44,671 bases of DNA from Terriglobia bacterium (lineage in GTDB: Bacteria; Acidobacteriota; Terriglobia; JAIQFV01), in contig JAIQFV010000030.1 of the NCBI GenBank assembly GCA_020073085.1, forward strand, positions 1-44,671. Direction: 5' to 3'. The notes beneath the pieces are model-generated. The model was not told the origin of the DNA and did no database searches. It saw only the letters and a list, made by a program, of their open reading frames with translations. Positions 120 to 8,885 of this stretch are shown piece after piece. Every line of letters begins with the position of its first letter. Positions within the stretch are counted from its first letter, which is position 1. The position numbers were made by a program, and so were the translations under genes.

Positions 120-659
120 CTAATTTGGACAAGAGTGATTGGTGTAGATTTCGTGCTTTTGGCTTATCCTTATGAGTTCGATTAACCATAATGGGGCATA
201 GGCCAAAGGAATGTCATCAAGAGAGTATCCGGGCTTCCATCTGTATAATTCGCCCGATTCGTGTTTGCTGGGGGGGGCTTTGGCATAGCCATCATAAGCC
301 CGTATATCCACACTTGGGATAATATGCTGACAATTTTTAACGTCAAAGCCCGGATCTTTGAAGTAATGGTGAAGCCCATCCCCTGTTATGACGGTTGGCG
401 TCTCTGGGATATAAAGCCCATGAACCGACTTCATTCCTTCTTCGCCGTCTGGATCTAGAACCAGCAACCCCTGCGTGACGATTGCGATATCGTTATTACT
501 GCCGTTACCCCACCATTCATTGCATTTTCGCAAAGAAGCCGTCGTGTCTCGGTAGGGCTTCCAATGGCGGACGTTTGGGTACTTTGTGGAGGGCTTCAGG
601 GGGAAAGGGCTGAGACCATGCTGGATGTAATTAAGTGCTGCCTCTAACGTTTCGTTCAC
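120..659 (-). CDS. Stand-alone PrimPol (bifunctional DNA primase/polymerase N-terminal) domain protein
   Basis: The 179-residue product matches the Prim-Pol domain found at the N-terminus of phage and plasmid replication primases. Visible features are an early aromatic/proline stretch with W43-type aromatic residues (NEWWGNGSNNDIAI), the acidic metal-binding motif in LLVLDPDGEEG, the TPTVITGDGLHHYF strand with its histidines, and the SVDIRAYDGY...APPSKHESGELYRW block typical of the family C-terminal half. Replication primases of this type usually continue into a helicase or DnaB-like domain of several hundred residues; here the frame stops right after the domain, so it is either a minimal primase or a truncated remnant. 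The start is the first ATG of the frame. Context (island genes, tRNA fragment) fits a plasmid- or phage-derived origin. Confidence 0.75.
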   Translation of the reverse strand: MNETLEAALNYIQHGLSPFPLKPSTKYPNVRHWKPYRDTTASLRKCNEWWGNGSNNDIAIVTQGLLVLDPDGEEGMKSVHGLYIPETPTVITGDGLHHYFKDPGFDVKNCQHIIPSVDIRAYDGYAKAPPSKHESGELYRWKPGYSLDDIPLAYAPLWLIELIRISQKHEIYTNHSCPN

Positions 660-1373
660 TGCCGCCTCAATGTTACGGGGCTAGGCGATTAGGCGGAATC
701 GCCAGGGCTTTTGACCTTTTCGCCCCGATCCTTTGTCGAAAGTTGCTTTGCTGCTTACTTGCTCAAGAAATATCTAATCAAATGAACCCTGGCATCGATC
801 ACTTTGCTGTCGGTCTCCTCGCTATTGTGAAAGTATTCACATGTTCTAATAAACCTATAAGTCACTCGGGCCATTATCCAGATTATCTATGGAACGGAAC
901 ACCGGGGGACTTACTCTATTTCACCCCCCTTATTTCATATTTTTCGCTGAATGTCGATAATCCTTTCGGCAAATCTCAATAAAATAAATTCTGGTTTATG
1001 TGAGTTATTAAAAACAAAAGCGCTATTAATCGAATCCTCCTCTCATGGGAAGGGCCGTCGAACTAGTGCATGGTGCAAATAGGTAATTTTCACTTATTTC
1101 GGTTTTCACCGGAAAATGGCAACATCTGGGAGCGAGAAACCTGCACGGTGCAACCATAAGACAAATCAAGCTCAAAGCCACAATTTGAGCAAGTAACTTG
1201 CATAAGTGGACAGGGAAAAGAATCACCACAATATAGCATATATTTTAACCATGCCATGACTCTCTGCGCGGTTTCCAGGTTGGCTCTTATTGACAAATCA
1301 CACAGTGGATTCAAAACCAGCTCGTGAAAAATTTCTCTTGAAATTGTAGCAGCGAAGTTCTACACTTTTGCTC
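660..1373. other. Gene-free stretch
   Basis: No reading frame here has a convincing ribosome site together with protein-like composition. The longest candidates (plus strand 635-982, minus strand 1,090-1,314) lack recognisable domains. The latter contains a CxxC pair but nothing else to support it. The stretch may hold the promoter of the PrimPol gene and decayed sequence. Confidence 0.4.
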
Positions 1374-1425
1374 GGCCAGCCGCCCCCAAGTCGGCCCCTT
1401 ATCACAATGCACCGATCGGCTGGCT
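1374..1425 (+). repeat. Structured hairpin element, copy A
   Basis: GGCCAGCCG (1,374-1,382) pairs with CGGCTGGCT (1,417-1,425; one G-T pair). Inside it GTCGG (1,390-1,394) pairs with CCGAT (1,412-1,416), directly stacked on the 3' side and separated by a C-rich bulge on the 5' side. A second copy with compensating changes lies at 2,053-2,101. The two copies flank the secreted-protein gene 1,494-1,979. It does not show the GTTRRRY/RYYYAAC ends of integron attC sites. Confidence 0.6.
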
Positions 1426-1493
1426 ATTTGAGGCTGTTCCGTTTATCTCCAGGTTAACCAGTGATTTGGAAAGCCCCGCCTACAGGAGGCCAA

Positions 1494-1979
1494 ATGCGTC
1501 TTCAATTGGTTGGAATCCTCACAGTCTTGCTACTGCTCCCCCAATTGATTTTTTCGCAGCAGGCAAGTTCGAAGAGCGCTTTCACTTTGAAGCCCGGACA
1601 AGCGGTTTACCTTGTCGCAGCTAAGAGTAATGGAAATCCCGACCTTTCGTCTGAGCGCAAGATCAAAGAGGAGTTTGAAAAGCAAAAGGTGTTTAAGATT
1701 GCCTCTTCCCTCCAATCCGCCGACTTTGTTTTCATAATGCTTGTTGAATACGAATATAACCAAAGCATGGTTGGTGGAATCGGGATTGGGAGCGAGGACA
1801 TAAAGAGCATCCTTGCTCTTGGAGTTCCTCCTTCTGCATACAGCCGATACAAGGCAAATCTCGATGGCTTGCGTGAAGAATCATTCTGGCAGTTGAGCGA
1901 GAATAACAATGCATGGCGGACAGGAGGCCTTCCGAAGAAAATTGTGAAGAAATTTCATGAAATGGTTCCCCCAAAATAG
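1494..1979 (+). CDS. Secreted protein of unknown function
   Basis: The 161-residue product begins with a clear Sec signal peptide (MRLQLVGILTVLLLLPQLIF, cut probably near SQQA), so it is exported to the periplasm or outside. The mature part has a compact alpha/beta look, with a strand-like VYLVAAKSNGNPDLSSE segment, an ERKIKEEFEKQ helix and hydrophobic ADFVFIMLVEYEY, then a GGIGIGSED glycine stretch and a C-terminal GGLPKKIVKKFHE. I do not recognise a named family, though similar small secreted proteins seem common in Acidobacteria. The ATG at 1,494 is preferred over the upstream GTG at 1,461 because AGGAGG (1,484-1,489) precedes it and it starts the signal peptide. Hairpin copies A and B flank the gene, so it may move as a cassette. 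Confidence 0.7.
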   Translation: MRLQLVGILTVLLLLPQLIFSQQASSKSAFTLKPGQAVYLVAAKSNGNPDLSSERKIKEEFEKQKVFKIASSLQSADFVFIMLVEYEYNQSMVGGIGIGSEDIKSILALGVPPSAYSRYKANLDGLREESFWQLSENNNAWRTGGLPKKIVKKFHEMVPPK

Positions 1980-2362
1980 GTCTTCCTGGACGATTTCTAC
2001 ATGAAAAATACCCCATGAATCTAGGTAAGAGATGAACATGAGATCTTGCGTTGGCCAGTCGCCTCCCATGTCGGCCCCCTGGTGATTCCGACCGACTGGC
2101 CACGTTTGTTTCCCCGGCCACATAAAGAAACCCTTCCACGAGAGATGAGAGAGGAGGCACCCCCATGTTGAGAATCCGCAAGTCTGTTGCCTTCGTGTTC
2201 TTGTTCTCGATGCGTTCCACTGCACTTCAAGAGGTTTGTAAAGCGTCCGATAAATAGATTTGCGGTTGCTGGTCATACAGCAAATTTCCCTCATTCTTTG
2301 GAGCGCCTGTTCAAAAAATCCTTAGTGAAATCTCAGCTCCGAAAGTAGAAGGAGTTGGTGAA
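1980..2362. other. Intergenic stretch with hairpin copy B
   Basis: Apart from the hairpin at 2,053-2,101, nothing is supported here. Three overlapping minus-strand frames (largest 1,732-2,220) run antisense into the secreted-protein gene and have no recognisable domain. AAGGAG at 2,349-2,354 belongs to the next gene. Confidence 0.4.
2053..2101 (+). repeat. Structured hairpin element, copy B
   Basis: GGCCAGTCG (2,053-2,061) pairs perfectly with CGACTGGCC (2,093-2,101), and inside it GTCGG (2,070-2,074) pairs with CCGAC (2,088-2,092). Relative to copy A, pair C1380-G1419 has become T2059-A2095 and G1374-T1425 has become G2053-C2101. The pairing is therefore conserved while bases change, which argues that the fold is functional. 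Confidence 0.6.
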
Positions 2363-3525: not shown

Positions 3526-4064
3526 AGATTTTCAAGCGTGGATCATCTGGTGCCAGCGGGGTCACCGTGGCTCATCAGTCGGATGCCCCATGTTAAACAA
3601 GGAACTACGCAACCTGAGGTTTTGGCAGGGTCCTAATTTGGTTTTTCACGATGGGGGATTTTGACTGACTTTTGGTGTTCGTTTTCCGAACAGCAAACGG
3701 TTCTCCTTGTTATGTCATTTCTTAGCGTAGTTGCCTTCCTTTTAGAATCCTAACACAGCACCCCTAAAATAATTCGTATTATGAATATCCTGTGCACCGT
3801 ATGTGGAAGACGGATGCTTGACTCCCTTTTTCTGTCAAGCCGAACCTGATTCGTGAAGAAAACTCTTTCGTGCGAGTCTTCTTGAAGAGTTCTTGTCTCT
3901 GTTCTAGGCTTTTTGACAATAGTTCTAAAAATACTGTTTCATTTTGAGAAATCAAGGCCCATAATCCTTGGACGTTTAGACCAATAACCCTTTATTCCGG
4001 TTAATGTTAAATAAAGTTCAACCGATGGCATATATGTTGCTAGGAATTAATCGCGTATTCGATG
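3526..4064. other. AT-rich gene-free stretch
   Basis: No supported gene. Runs of A/T and stop codons occur in all frames. The right edge grades into the regulatory region of the TacAT pair. Confidence 0.5.
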
Positions 4065-4081
4065 TACGGCAATTTGCCGTA
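4065..4081. promoter_or_regulatory. Perfect 8+1+8 palindrome upstream of tacA
   Basis: TACGGCAA at 4,065-4,072 and TTGCCGTA at 4,074-4,081 form an exact inverted repeat around a single base. Its position 9 bases before the -35 element makes it a likely distal operator for the ribbon-helix-helix antitoxin or another regulator. Confidence 0.5.
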
Positions 4082-4089
4082 TTTTTATC

Positions 4090-4118
4090 TTGACTTGTAC
4101 GGCGGTTGGGTGTACAGT
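4090..4118 (+). promoter_or_regulatory. Promoter with embedded operator for tacA-tacT
   Basis: TTGACT (4,090-4,095) and TACAGT (4,113-4,118) are separated by exactly 17 bases and resemble a sigma-70 type promoter. An inverted repeat TGTAC (4,096-4,100) / GTACA (4,112-4,116) occupies the spacer and runs into the -10 box, where a bound repressor would block RNA polymerase. This is the expected layout for autoregulation by a ribbon-helix-helix antitoxin. Confidence 0.6.
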
Positions 4119-4142
4119 CACAGACGATTTATGGAGACGACG

Positions 4143-4442
4143 ATGCCACAAATACAACAGACCGAGGAACGCTCTCCCAAAAAGGAGCGCCTTGACGCTA
4201 GGGTTACTGCGGAACAAAAACGTCTGATTGAGCGTGCGGCCGCATTACGTGGGACATCCATCACAAATTTCGTAGTCGCGAGTGCACAGGAGGCCGCCAC
4301 TAGCACAATCAAAGACTTCGATGTTCTGTACCTTCGAGATCAGGCCCGCAACGTTTTCATAAGGGCGATTTTGAATCCCCCTGCACCCACCGATGCTGCT
4401 CTTGCCGCAGCAGAGCGGTACAAAAGGAACATGGGGCGCTAG
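4143..4442 (+). CDS. tacA: Type II antitoxin, DUF1778 / TacA family
   Basis: The 99-residue product has the DUF1778 antitoxin pattern. A basic N-terminus with KKERLDARVTAEQKRLIERA forms the ribbon-helix-helix DNA-binding fold, then comes LRGTSITNFVVASAQEAA, and a C-terminal tail (ILNPPAPTDAALAAAERYKR) of the kind that wraps and inhibits the GNAT toxin. It should neutralise TacT and repress its own promoter, where inverted repeats lie at 4,065-4,081 and 4,096-4,116. The ATG at 4,143 is preferred because GGAG at 4,133-4,136 sits 6 bases ahead; an ATG at 4,131 has no comparable site. The toxin gene starts directly after the stop codon. Confidence 0.9.
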   Translation: MPQIQQTEERSPKKERLDARVTAEQKRLIERAAALRGTSITNFVVASAQEAATSTIKDFDVLYLRDQARNVFIRAILNPPAPTDAALAAAERYKRNMGR

Positions 4443-4964
4443 GTGGCTCCCGAAGAGAAACAATCCGCATTCGAAATCGAGCCGCTCGGCAATAATCATG
4501 ACCGAGCGGCTTTTTCTTGTGGGGATAAAGCGCTCGACACATACCTGCACACGCAGGCGGGGCAAGATGTAAAGAAAAGTGTGGCGGTCGTATTCGTTGC
4601 AACGCCAGATAGAAGAACCATCGCTGGATATTACACGCTCTCCCAGTACGCGATACATCTTGACACCATTCCGCCGGGAGTTGCCCGAAAACTGCCAAGG
4701 TATCCAATGCTTCCGGCAACGCTTATAGGTCGCCTTGCATCGTCCGAGAAATTTCGCGGGCAGAGGGTCGGGGAAACATTGCTGATGAACGCCCTTGAAA
4801 CCTGTCTTAAGTATAGTAAACAGGTCGCCGCCGTATGTGTTGTTGTGGATGCCAAAAATGATTCGGCAGCTGCATTCTATAGGAAATACGGGTTTATTGA
4901 CCTTCCGAAAGTGGAGCGACGCCTCTTTCTCCCCATGAAAACTGTTGCAGCACTTTTTCCCTAG
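4443..4964 (+). CDS. tacT: GNAT-family acetyltransferase toxin, TacT-like
   Basis: The 173-residue product is a GNAT N-acetyltransferase of the TacT/AtaT toxin group, which blocks translation by acetylating the amino acid of charged tRNA. Family marks are FSCGDKALDTYLHTQA near the N-terminus, IAGYYTLSQYAI, the LPRYPMLPATLIGRLA strand, the acetyl-CoA loop in FRGQRVGETLL, VVVDAKNDSAAAFY and the FYRKYGF motif whose Tyr146 matches the catalytic tyrosine. The GTG start at 4,443 abuts the antitoxin stop codon (4,440-4,442) with no gap, so expression is coupled. Together with TacA it forms a complete toxin-antitoxin module, probably stabilising the island. Confidence 0.9.
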   Translation: MAPEEKQSAFEIEPLGNNHDRAAFSCGDKALDTYLHTQAGQDVKKSVAVVFVATPDRRTIAGYYTLSQYAIHLDTIPPGVARKLPRYPMLPATLIGRLASSEKFRGQRVGETLLMNALETCLKYSKQVAAVCVVVDAKNDSAAAFYRKYGFIDLPKVERRLFLPMKTVAALFP

Positions 4965-5529: not shown

Positions 5530-5857
5530 CTTGCCTCCTAAAAAAGAATGCTTTTGTAATGTCGTGCTGGATTTCCAAGGCCCCTTAATGCCCAATGGGG
5601 TTTCACAAATGCGAATCCAAATCTCTCGCGTACTATCAAACCTTTTCCGGTCGATCCTGCTTGCACCCGTCTTTCAGGCGTAATGCGGTTTGAGATGCGG
5701 TTTGAGATTTGGAAACGGTGTGCCCATTTTTGTGCCCTATCGCAGGAACAACTGCAAAGATTATTGGGAGCATTTGAATCGCACAGCATGACTAAACCTT
5801 TAAGCGAGAGATACGTTTGTGCTATGATTTGTTTTTGTGTGGATCGTCCGGCTTGAA

Positions 5858-5902
5858 CTTCGAATCCGCAGGTCGCAGGTTCAAATCCTGTCGGGCGCAC
5901 CA
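5858..5902 (+). pseudogene. 3' fragment of tRNA-Arg(TCG), putative attachment site
   Basis: The fragment runs from the anticodon loop CTTCGAA (5,858-5,864; anticodon TCG) through variable loop AGGTC, T-arm GCAGG-TTCAAAT-CCTGT (5,875-5,891), acceptor 3' strand CGGGCGC (5,892-5,898), discriminator A and CCA (5,900-5,902). The 5' half is absent. The bases before the loop do not pair with the anticodon 3' strand, and no GCGCCCG acceptor strand or D-arm lies upstream. A break exactly at the anticodon loop and a conserved 3' end are hallmarks of tRNA-targeting integrases. Confidence 0.75.
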
Positions 5903-6036
5903 GTTCTTTGGTATGATTCAGGAGTATGGTAGTAACGGAGGCGATGGAGAGACATTGTGGGGGCGAGGCTTCTTTTTTCATGAAGCGGCACTCTCCCGGC
6001 GACGGAGAGGATGCTCCCGGCCCCCGCATGGAGTAC

Positions 6037-6114
6037 GGTGGGTGTAGCTCAGCTAGGTAGAGCGCCAGATTGTGGATCTGGTGGCCATGGGTTCGATCCC
6101 CATCACCCACCCCA
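6037..6114 (+). tRNA. tRNA-His(GTG)
   Basis: Complete cloverleaf. Acceptor GTGGGTG (6,038-6,044) pairs with CACCCAC (6,104-6,110), the D-arm is TAGCTCAGCTAGGTAGAGCG, anticodon stem CCAGA/TCTGG encloses loop TTGTGGA with anticodon GTG at 6,072-6,074, the T-arm is ATGGG-TTCGATC-CCCAT, and CCA is encoded at 6,112-6,114. G at 6,037 faces C73 at 6,111, the extra G-1:C73 pair characteristic of tRNA-His. Confidence 0.97.
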
Positions 6115-6404: not shown

Positions 6405-8885
6405 ATGACATTTCGTTTTTTGAGGATGGTTTTCATCCTCACCTTGTTGATGGGGACGGCGGTTGTGAATGCGGCTGGAGGAGGAGCCGGAGCGGGCGAT
6501 GCCTCCGCCTCAAAGGCCAATCAGGACCCTACCTACCAGGCGCTCCGCACGGTGGGGCTGAGTGGAGACGCTGTGGCCGTCACCAATTTCACGCTGAAGC
6601 GCGAGGCGGGGACCTTCATATTCAAGTCGGGCAGTCTCTATTTTCTTGCGCCGGTGGCGAGCAAAGTGACCGGGGCCGTGTTTGTGGGGGAAGGGAATTT
6701 CCAACTGAGCCCTCTGCTGAAGAGTGAACGCCAAAGCTTGTCGATCTTGACCAAGGACTCCGAAGGGGTCATCAATGAGGAATTCAATCAACTTGTGTTG
6801 CGGTTTACCGACGGTACCTACGAAGAGCTCAAGAAAGCGGGGAGCGTCGCCCCGGGGTCAGCCGATAGCCACGCCCGGGATGTCCTTGGCGATAATCAAT
6901 CCCTCCTGCGCCGTACGCTCCACTACAACCTCAGCGGTAGAATCCTTCAAGATCTTCTGGGTGATCACCAGGGGGGCTTGTTCTATGCGTTCATCAAGGG
7001 GAAGAAATACAGCGGCAAGCTTCTCTTTGCGATTGATCCTCACGGCGTGCCGGGCCTGGGTGATCTCCCGCCAGTTGAGCCTGAAGAAGTGGCCTTACTG
7101 ACCTATGACGATTCCAAACTCGGCATTTGGTGCTCTTTTCATCTGGCTTCTGAATACAATACCGGCAAGGCCGTGGGGAATCAGAAAAATGGCGTGATCC
7201 ACATTGAACACCAGGAGCTCGACACCACCATCGAGCGTAATGCCCGAATCCAGGGAACCGCCACCACAAAATTCATCGTCCAGTCGGCCGGGGTGCGGGT
7301 GGCTCCGTTCGACTTATTTCCGACGTTACGAGTCGAGAGCGTGACGGACTCCGCGGGTCAGGCGCTTTCCTTCATCCAGGAGGGAAAGGACGACGATCCT
7401 CAGTTCTCCGTGATTCTTCCTAAGGCTCTCGGGGCCGGTGAGAGTTACGTGATTAAAACGACCTACGGGGGGAAAGAGGCCGTGAGAGACTCGGGAGGCG
7501 GAAATTATTATCCGGTCGCCAGAGACAACTGGTATCCCAACAGCCGATTTGGCGATTATGCGGAGTATGAGATGACCTTCCACATCCCCAAGGGATTAAC
7601 CATGGTGGCCACCGGGACTCCGGTCAGCAACGAGAATGACGGGAATCAGAACGTCTCCCGGTGGCGCAGTGAAGTACCGCAGGCCGTGGCGGGTTTCAAC
7701 TTCGGGAAATTTAGAAAACAAGAGGCAAAAGACAATCAGCTTGGGTACACCATCGAGTCCTACGCAAACACGGAGCAACCGGATATTTTCCGCGAATTAC
7801 AGGCGGACATAGAGCAGGAGGAGCAACGGGGGAACCGATCAGAAACGACGCTGGGAAGCCTGGACACGACCGGGTTGATCAAAAAGGCCTTGGCGGAAGG
7901 ACAGATTTCCATCGCACTCTACACCACCTATTTTGGGCCGATCCCTTATAAGCGGGTCGCCTTGACCCAGCAGACAGCGACAAACTTCGGTCAGTCTTGG
8001 CCCACCCTGGTCTATCTTCCCATTACGGCATTTCTCGACACTACCATTCGCCATCAACTCCACATCGATGATACCAAAGGGTTCTTCAAGATTGTGGGCC
8101 CCCATGAAGTGGCGCACCAATGGTGGGGACACGCAGTCGGATTTGCCTCCTACCGGGACCAGTGGATGAGCGAGGGGTTTGCGGAGTTCTCTTCTTCCTT
8201 GTACGTCCAGGTGATCCAGAAAAAGACGCAGGAATTCAAAAAATTCTGGGATGACGAACGCAATCTCATGCTTGAAAGAAATAATTTTGGGAAACGGGCT
8301 ATTGATGTGGGTCCGGTGACGATGGGATACCGGCTCAGCAACAGCAAGTCCGGCTTCGACATCTATCAACGCCTGATTTATCCCAAGGGAGCCTACATCC
8401 TCCACATGATCCGCATGATGATGTGGAACAATCGCACCGCGGATGAAAAGTTCATTGAGATGATGAGAGATTTCATCAAGACCTATGCCAACCAGACGGC
8501 CACCACCGAGGACTTCAAGGCGATGGTCGAGAAACATATCCTTCCCGTGATGAATGTGACGGGCGACGGGAAAATGGATTGGTTCTTCAACGAGTATGTT
8601 TATGGCACCTCACTGCCTAATTATGCTTTGGATTACTCGGTGAATAACAGCCCGGACGGCAAGCTCATGCTGCACGTTAAGATGACCCAATCGAACGTGG
8701 ACGACAACTTTGCGATGCGCATTCCGATCTACCTGGAGCTTGCGGATTCGCGCGTGATCCGTCTGGGAGGTGTCCTCCTTCAGGGAAACAAATCAATTGA
8801 ACAGGATGTTCCTCTCGAAGGGTTAAAGGAAAAACCTAAGCGGGTCATGCTGAATTACTTTAATGATGTTCTGTGTACCCAGTAA
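6405..8885 (+). CDS. Secreted M1-family zinc metallopeptidase (aminopeptidase N-like)
   Basis: The 826-residue product has a signal peptide (MTFRFLRMVFILTLLMGTAV, cut near VNAA), so it acts in the periplasm or outside. The gluzincin site is intact: HEVAH at residues 567-571 and Glu590 in MSEGFAEF, giving HExxH-X18-E. The upstream region (residues about 270-480) resembles the M1 N-terminal beta domain, and the NWYPNSRFGDYAEYEMTF stretch is typical of bacterial secreted M1 relatives. A canonical GxMEN exopeptidase motif is not evident, so true aminopeptidase activity is uncertain. ATG 6,405 is preferred over GTG 6,402 because AGGAGG (6,393-6,398) is 6 bases ahead. The 3' end overlaps by 26 bases the convergent gene on the other strand. 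Confidence 0.85.
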   Translation: MTFRFLRMVFILTLLMGTAVVNAAGGGAGAGDASASKANQDPTYQALRTVGLSGDAVAVTNFTLKREAGTFIFKSGSLYFLAPVASKVTGAVFVGEGNFQLSPLLKSERQSLSILTKDSEGVINEEFNQLVLRFTDGTYEELKKAGSVAPGSADSHARDVLGDNQSLLRRTLHYNLSGRILQDLLGDHQGGLFYAFIKGKKYSGKLLFAIDPHGVPGLGDLPPVEPEEVALLTYDDSKLGIWCSFHLASEYNTGKAVGNQKNGVIHIEHQELDTTIERNARIQGTATTKFIVQSAGVRVAPFDLFPTLRVESVTDSAGQALSFIQEGKDDDPQFSVILPKALGAGESYVIKTTYGGKEAVRDSGGGNYYPVARDNWYPNSRFGDYAEYEMTFHIPKGLTMVATGTPVSNENDGNQNVSRWRSEVPQAVAGFNFGKFRKQEAKDNQLGYTIESYANTEQPDIFRELQADIEQEEQRGNRSETTLGSLDTTGLIKKALAEGQISIALYTTYFGPIPYKRVALTQQTATNFGQSWPTLVYLPITAFLDTTIRHQLHIDDTKGFFKIVGPHEVAHQWWGHAVGFASYRDQWMSEGFAEFSSSLYVQVIQKKTQEFKKFWDDERNLMLERNNFGKRAIDVGPVTMGYRLSNSKSGFDIYQRLIYPKGAYILHMIRMMMWNNRTADEKFIEMMRDFIKTYANQTATTEDFKAMVEKHILPVMNVTGDGKMDWFFNEYVYGTSLPNYALDYSVNNSPDGKLMLHVKMTQSNVDDNFAMRIPIYLELADSRVIRLGGVLLQGNKSIEQDVPLEGLKEKPKRVMLNYFNDVLCTQ

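Follow-up and report, generated by a model that had tools for sequence, protein, structure and literature searches.

The two folded elements near the start of the window (the whole stretch of DNA analysed, 44,671 nt) belong to a dispersed family whose members are probably Pc-like promoter and leader units derived from integron platforms that lost their integrase. A sigma-70-type promoter would start a transcript at, or 1-2 nt from, the GGCCAG hairpin formed by the element, and this transcript would run into whichever gene lies 3' of it. The module family would descend from the expression platform of integrons in which intI and the cassettes are co-directional, so that one promoter would read intI, attI, and the cassettes. 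Where intI decayed to its 3' end or vanished, a Pc-like promoter and leader, with or without attI, would be left in front of captured genes. The evidence in the sequences comprises the family itself, the geometry of its promoters, the intI tails, the attI boundaries, and the differing downstream genes; activity of the promoters is predicted.

Both window copies of the element are on the + strand, with a single secreted-protein gene between them. Copy 1 (1374-1425), the predicted 5' end of a transcript, has a 9-bp outer stem (1374-1382/1417-1425), a C-rich bulge, and a 5-bp inner stem (1390-1394/1412-1416). Copy 2 (2053-2101) has the corresponding arms at 2053-2061/2093-2101 and 2070-2074/2088-2092. 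An earlier sequence-only reading had reported these positions and stems, the paired differences between the copies (C-G to T-A and G-T to G-C), and the one gene between them, all of which we confirmed; the first difference is in the outer stem and the second in the inner stem. Upstream of copy 1 are a -35 box (TTGAAA, 1338-1343, +), at a position matching that in 25 of the 26 copies described below, and, after a 17-nt spacer, a -10 box (TACACT, 1361-1366, +) that is 7 nt 5' of the hairpin. The hairpin is followed by a leader common to other copies (the ATTTGAGGCTGTTCC region, 1426-1440, +), by a Shine-Dalgarno sequence (AGGAGG, 1484-1489, +), and by the gene (1494-1979, +), which encodes a 161-aa protein with a signal-peptide-like N-terminus. 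This protein had no Pfam hit, and a search of the other 60 related genomes turned up no homologue. The only ORF behind copy 2 (2165-2257, +), preceded by another AGGAGG (2152-2157, +), encodes 30 aa with a signal-peptide-like start and is probably truncated. Copy 1 would drive the secreted-protein gene, and copy 2, which has no recognisable promoter and a long branch in the family tree, would be a decayed duplicate.

The window pair is not a product of chance, because a covariance model made from both window copies and two further copies found by pattern recovered additional copies in a genome search (down to E 1e-4). In total there are about 26 dispersed copies in three genomes: 15 in the window genome (the weakest, L023, with E 0.5), nine in a congener (G001, Terriglobia MAG SRVP_39) from the same uncultured acidobacterial genus, and two in another genus of the same family (G002); two of these three genomes are thus from one genus, and all three are draft assemblies. 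This was the check that the sequence-only reading had proposed, and it found the element in the window genome and two relatives, tied to single genes. A search of 297 genomes of the phylum gave one weak extra match and nothing convincing beyond the three genomes, and when 85,000 species genomes were scanned for the exact pattern, a single contig matched, from the same congener. Searches of viral contigs, phages, and plasmids gave no match to the element, and we dropped a phage or plasmid origin.

The position of the element relative to a promoter is nearly constant. Sigma-70-like hexamers (TTGAAN-like and TANACT-like, with an N17/18 spacer) precede 25 of the 26 copies, copy 2 being the sole exception, and the -10 box lies 6-8 nt from the first base of the element. 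No individual promoter is significant alone; the evidence is the constant position over 25 copies. Since the promoter ends 6-8 nt before it, the element is at the expected transcription start, and the transcript would begin with the hairpin.

Twelve copies (type A: L015-L018, L021, L029, L030, L037, L038, L040, L042, and L043) have in common a tail reaching up to 484 nt. Its sequence matches identify it as a decayed integron integrase gene, of which the 3' end remains. A search with TIGR02249 found a full intI on contig C8 of the window genome and matches, with stops inside, in two type A tails. By tblastn, the C-terminal motif of intI (HSFATHLLE...TTMIYTHVLNRGG) was present at +105 to +306 in eight copies, strongly in L038 (E 3e-13), L043, L021, and L018 and more weakly in L037, L040, L029, and L015. 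A DNA HMM of the tail matched the 3' ends of four intI loci spread over the three genomes (E 5e-29, 3e-23, 5e-30, and 4e-21). The type A copies retain intI only as decayed 3' remnants, several with stops; intact intI is found elsewhere (C8). Behind the tails are unrelated genes encoding TIR, BrnT/BrnA, a GmrSD N-terminal domain, an RHS-repeat protein, a glyoxalase, and a DUF3455 lipoprotein.

Several of the tails end at a boundary that resembles attI. The main type A group stays homologous precisely as far as TTTAATG|TT, with unrelated sequence beyond, and in several tails the site reads ...TTTAATG|TTRRRY, after which unrelated genes start. Six more copies of the site in the congener end at the same base before unrelated sequence (0 with a reversed-pattern control). 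This relic attI, the TTTAATGTT site, has the sequence features expected of attI: a conserved left side, a putative crossover at G|TT, and differing putative cassettes to the right. The attI of L029 matches those of the intact integrons on C8 and the congener's C34; a profile that also hit this attI includes L029 itself. In L042, attI (GTTAGGC) is followed by a glyoxalase gene, with attC at +587; in its ortholog L021, where the upstream flanks are 88-89% identical, BrnT/BrnA comes after attI. Because BrnT/BrnA is found there in the window species and glyoxalase plus attC in the congener, this site fits the placement of different cassettes at one attI. Downstream attC sites were detected in L042 and L021, with candidates in L043 and L018 and none found in the other type A copies. 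Four attI-like copies, ending at 1639, 15627, 22667, and 24295, are also present in a mostly one-strand gene array of the congener (L090/L091, G001:C64:1-30000), each followed by unrelated sequence and without the promoter hairpin; a single attC was detected in this array.

The resemblance of the gene and its flanking hairpins to a cassette, as suggested by the sequence-only reading, is therefore partly borne out. The element is repeated at single genes and has a real connection to integrons and cassettes, through the 12 relatives with a decayed intI tail, the best preserved of which have attI, cassette genes, and attC. However, the element is a 5' start behind a promoter and not a flanking cassette end, and because it starts each transcription unit, the copies on either side of one gene represent two units in succession. 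The same reading had remarked on the missing standard attC ends, and indeed there is no RYYYAAC...GTTRRRY pair at either window hairpin; we dropped the hairpin as an attC or cassette end.

An intact integron with the predicted ancestral arrangement is present in the window genome. There (L077, G000:C8:262000-281999), promoter, intI (6879-7928), attI, and cassettes with attC follow one another on one strand. Closely similar attC sites of about 75 nt number about a dozen in this integron, and the count of regular ones on C8 is at least nine. The leaders of intact intI resemble the module in promoter layout and in a short TTGAGGCTT stretch only, which is also the core of the copy 1 leader. At one locus in the second genus (L081, G002:C2:189279), an integron promoter and leader are fused to an internally deleted intI with a 113-aa C-terminal frame. 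In two species the leaders of intact intI lack the hairpin, so it may have been inserted later, may come from another lineage, or may have been lost from the intact loci rather than gained by the relic lineage. This absence, the dispersed copies, and the inverted GGCCAG/CTGGCC ends would also suit a non-autonomous transposable element (MITE or REP-like) with terminal inverted repeats, but homology starts about 45-65 nt upstream, at the promoter rather than the hairpin, near-identical copies are absent (the best within-genome pairs are <90% identical), no empty site was found, and no target duplications were seen. We consider such an element very improbable.

The intI tail was not detectable in 14 of the 26 copies, including both window copies, which raises the possibility of a generic dispersed promoter or leader (a putative mobile promoter or regulon leader) that an old integron also recruited, leaving the window copies without integron descent. 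Many copies precede secreted-protein genes, and a separate group of seven includes four that have a recognisable secreted-protein paralogue (L022, L025, L045, and, in part, L041). Pairwise comparison also set apart window copy 1, L014, L019, and L039, which share only about -50 to +61. However, the tail-bearing copies fall in three separate clusters of the (weakly supported) tree, interleaved with tail-less copies and in both genera, so tail loss fits better than gain. On this evidence we regard the generic promoter as possible but doubtful. Putative mobile promoters are homologous promoters in front of non-homologous genes, as here, but part of the present family has an identifiable source, the integron platform. 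Nothing specific turned up in our literature searches, which covered mobile promoters and acidobacterial leaders. Several 45-75 nt repeats of the TTTGGAATTTGGATTTTGG type lie upstream of the element in L024 (-502 to -89), 5' of the promoter, and this type of repeat also occurs in L022, L025, L045, and L046.

Within the preferred reading, descent from integron platforms, we read the window copies as reduced members of the family that would have passed through an attI/intI stage. They share the hairpin and the TTGAGGCT leader with type A, plus the promoter for copy 1, and they are placed among the type A clusters with low support. Because neither element is adjoined by an intI tail, attI (0 matches), or attC, their integron descent rests on about 110 nt of homology. 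A search of the window for the 22-nt attI core found none, and a CAGGTTAACCAG stretch in the copy 1 leader is too weak to claim as an attI scar.

The family keeps a self-complementary sequence, and covariation does not show selection on pairing. The sequence-only reading had concluded from the two window copies that the pairing rather than the sequence is kept; over 26 copies it is mainly the sequence. Across all 13 pairs, 87.2% of cells were paired compared to a shuffled mean of 87.3%, the covariation score was 0.151 compared to 0.162 in shuffles (429 of 500 shuffles scored as high), and the number of compensated pairs was not in excess of shuffles (26 copies; the same with 23 copies). Of the 26, copy 2 alone has the C-G to T-A change. 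Folding z-scores on the + strand were -2.3 for copy 1 and -3.1 for copy 2, and the family mean was only -0.9. With no covariation signal and weak z-scores, we dropped a conserved RNA fold. The element matched no known RNA family in an Rfam covariance-model search, and we dropped that candidate too; two sub-threshold Acido-Lenti-1 matches (RF01687) in L038, at 1275-1325 (-) and 1131-1182 (+) with 33.3 and 31.7 bits, are upstream of the element and outside it.

These results also bear on a structured cis-regulatory RNA (a riboswitch or protein-binding leader) whose fold would be the conserved feature. Most copies have terminal self-complementarity, the length of 47 to 56 nt suits an RNA hairpin better than a DNA operator of fixed spacing, and base pairing between the C-rich bulge and Shine-Dalgarno sequences is possible, but the missing covariation signal, the weak z-scores, the lack of an Rfam match, and the unrelated downstream genes make this explanation improbable. 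A DNA operator with two half-sites is not favoured because the spacing varies from copy to copy. As part of an integron-derived leader, the hairpin may protect or regulate the mRNA. One further version, which we think rather unlikely, is a dispersed integron: an intact integrase would serve in trans many scattered attI/promoter stations, with a hairpin at each transcript start, so that captured genes would be expressed from many single-cassette stations rather than one long array, and the hairpin would stabilise cassette mRNA or let transcription and translation pass.

The components of this family have precedents. Same-direction intI is known from Treponema (PMC3607928), and the intact integron on C8 shares this layout; compared to such an intact integron, the copies here have a 3' remnant of intI or none, number about 15 in the window genome, and have an extra hairpin in the leader. 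Integron platforms with a broken integrase are common: nearly one third of intI genes are reported to be pseudogenes, and 20% of the bacteria to carry more than one integrase gene (PMC2426708). The present platforms are likewise broken but, unlike those pseudo-integrons, form a multi-copy dispersed family that shares promoter, leader hairpin, and intI tail across two genera. In CALIN (attC clusters without a neighbouring intI), cassettes likewise persist without a local integrase, whereas here it is the platform side (promoter and attI) that persists, mostly without attC arrays. The Delta-attI type gene cassettes (PMC12901181) likewise have repeated attI flanking genes, comparable to the congener's C64 array, but they come from clinical bacteria, where mobile integrons carry them, and their recombination was tested, whereas the present sites are putative ones recognised by sequence. 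A review of expression (PMC8876359) discusses cassettes that carry a promoter but no ORF, as well as hairpins in cassette mRNA. We came across no account of a multi-copy promoter-hairpin-attI family in the literature searched.

If our reading is correct, integron platforms persisted after the loss of their integrase and now supply ready promoters and attI sites in many copies, one orthologous site having a different cassette in each of two species. Such platforms would account for the way in which cassette genes become established in a genome as ordinary single genes, each with its own promoter, and the combination of promoter, hairpin, and attI would be a searchable signature for relic integrons that are missed by intI- or attC-based tools.

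Other features lie near the window copies. What looks like half of a tRNA gene, the 3' part with its CCA end (GGTCGCAGGTTCAAATCCTGTCGGGCGCACCA), is at 5845-5903, with an intact tRNA-His 3' of it at 6038-6114, and a Prim-Pol gene is at 120-659 (-). The tRNA half and the Prim-Pol gene suggest that 1-5.9 kb of the window is an integrated island. A gene for a TacA-like antitoxin followed by one for a GNAT acetyltransferase (4062-4964) is a probable toxin-antitoxin pair.
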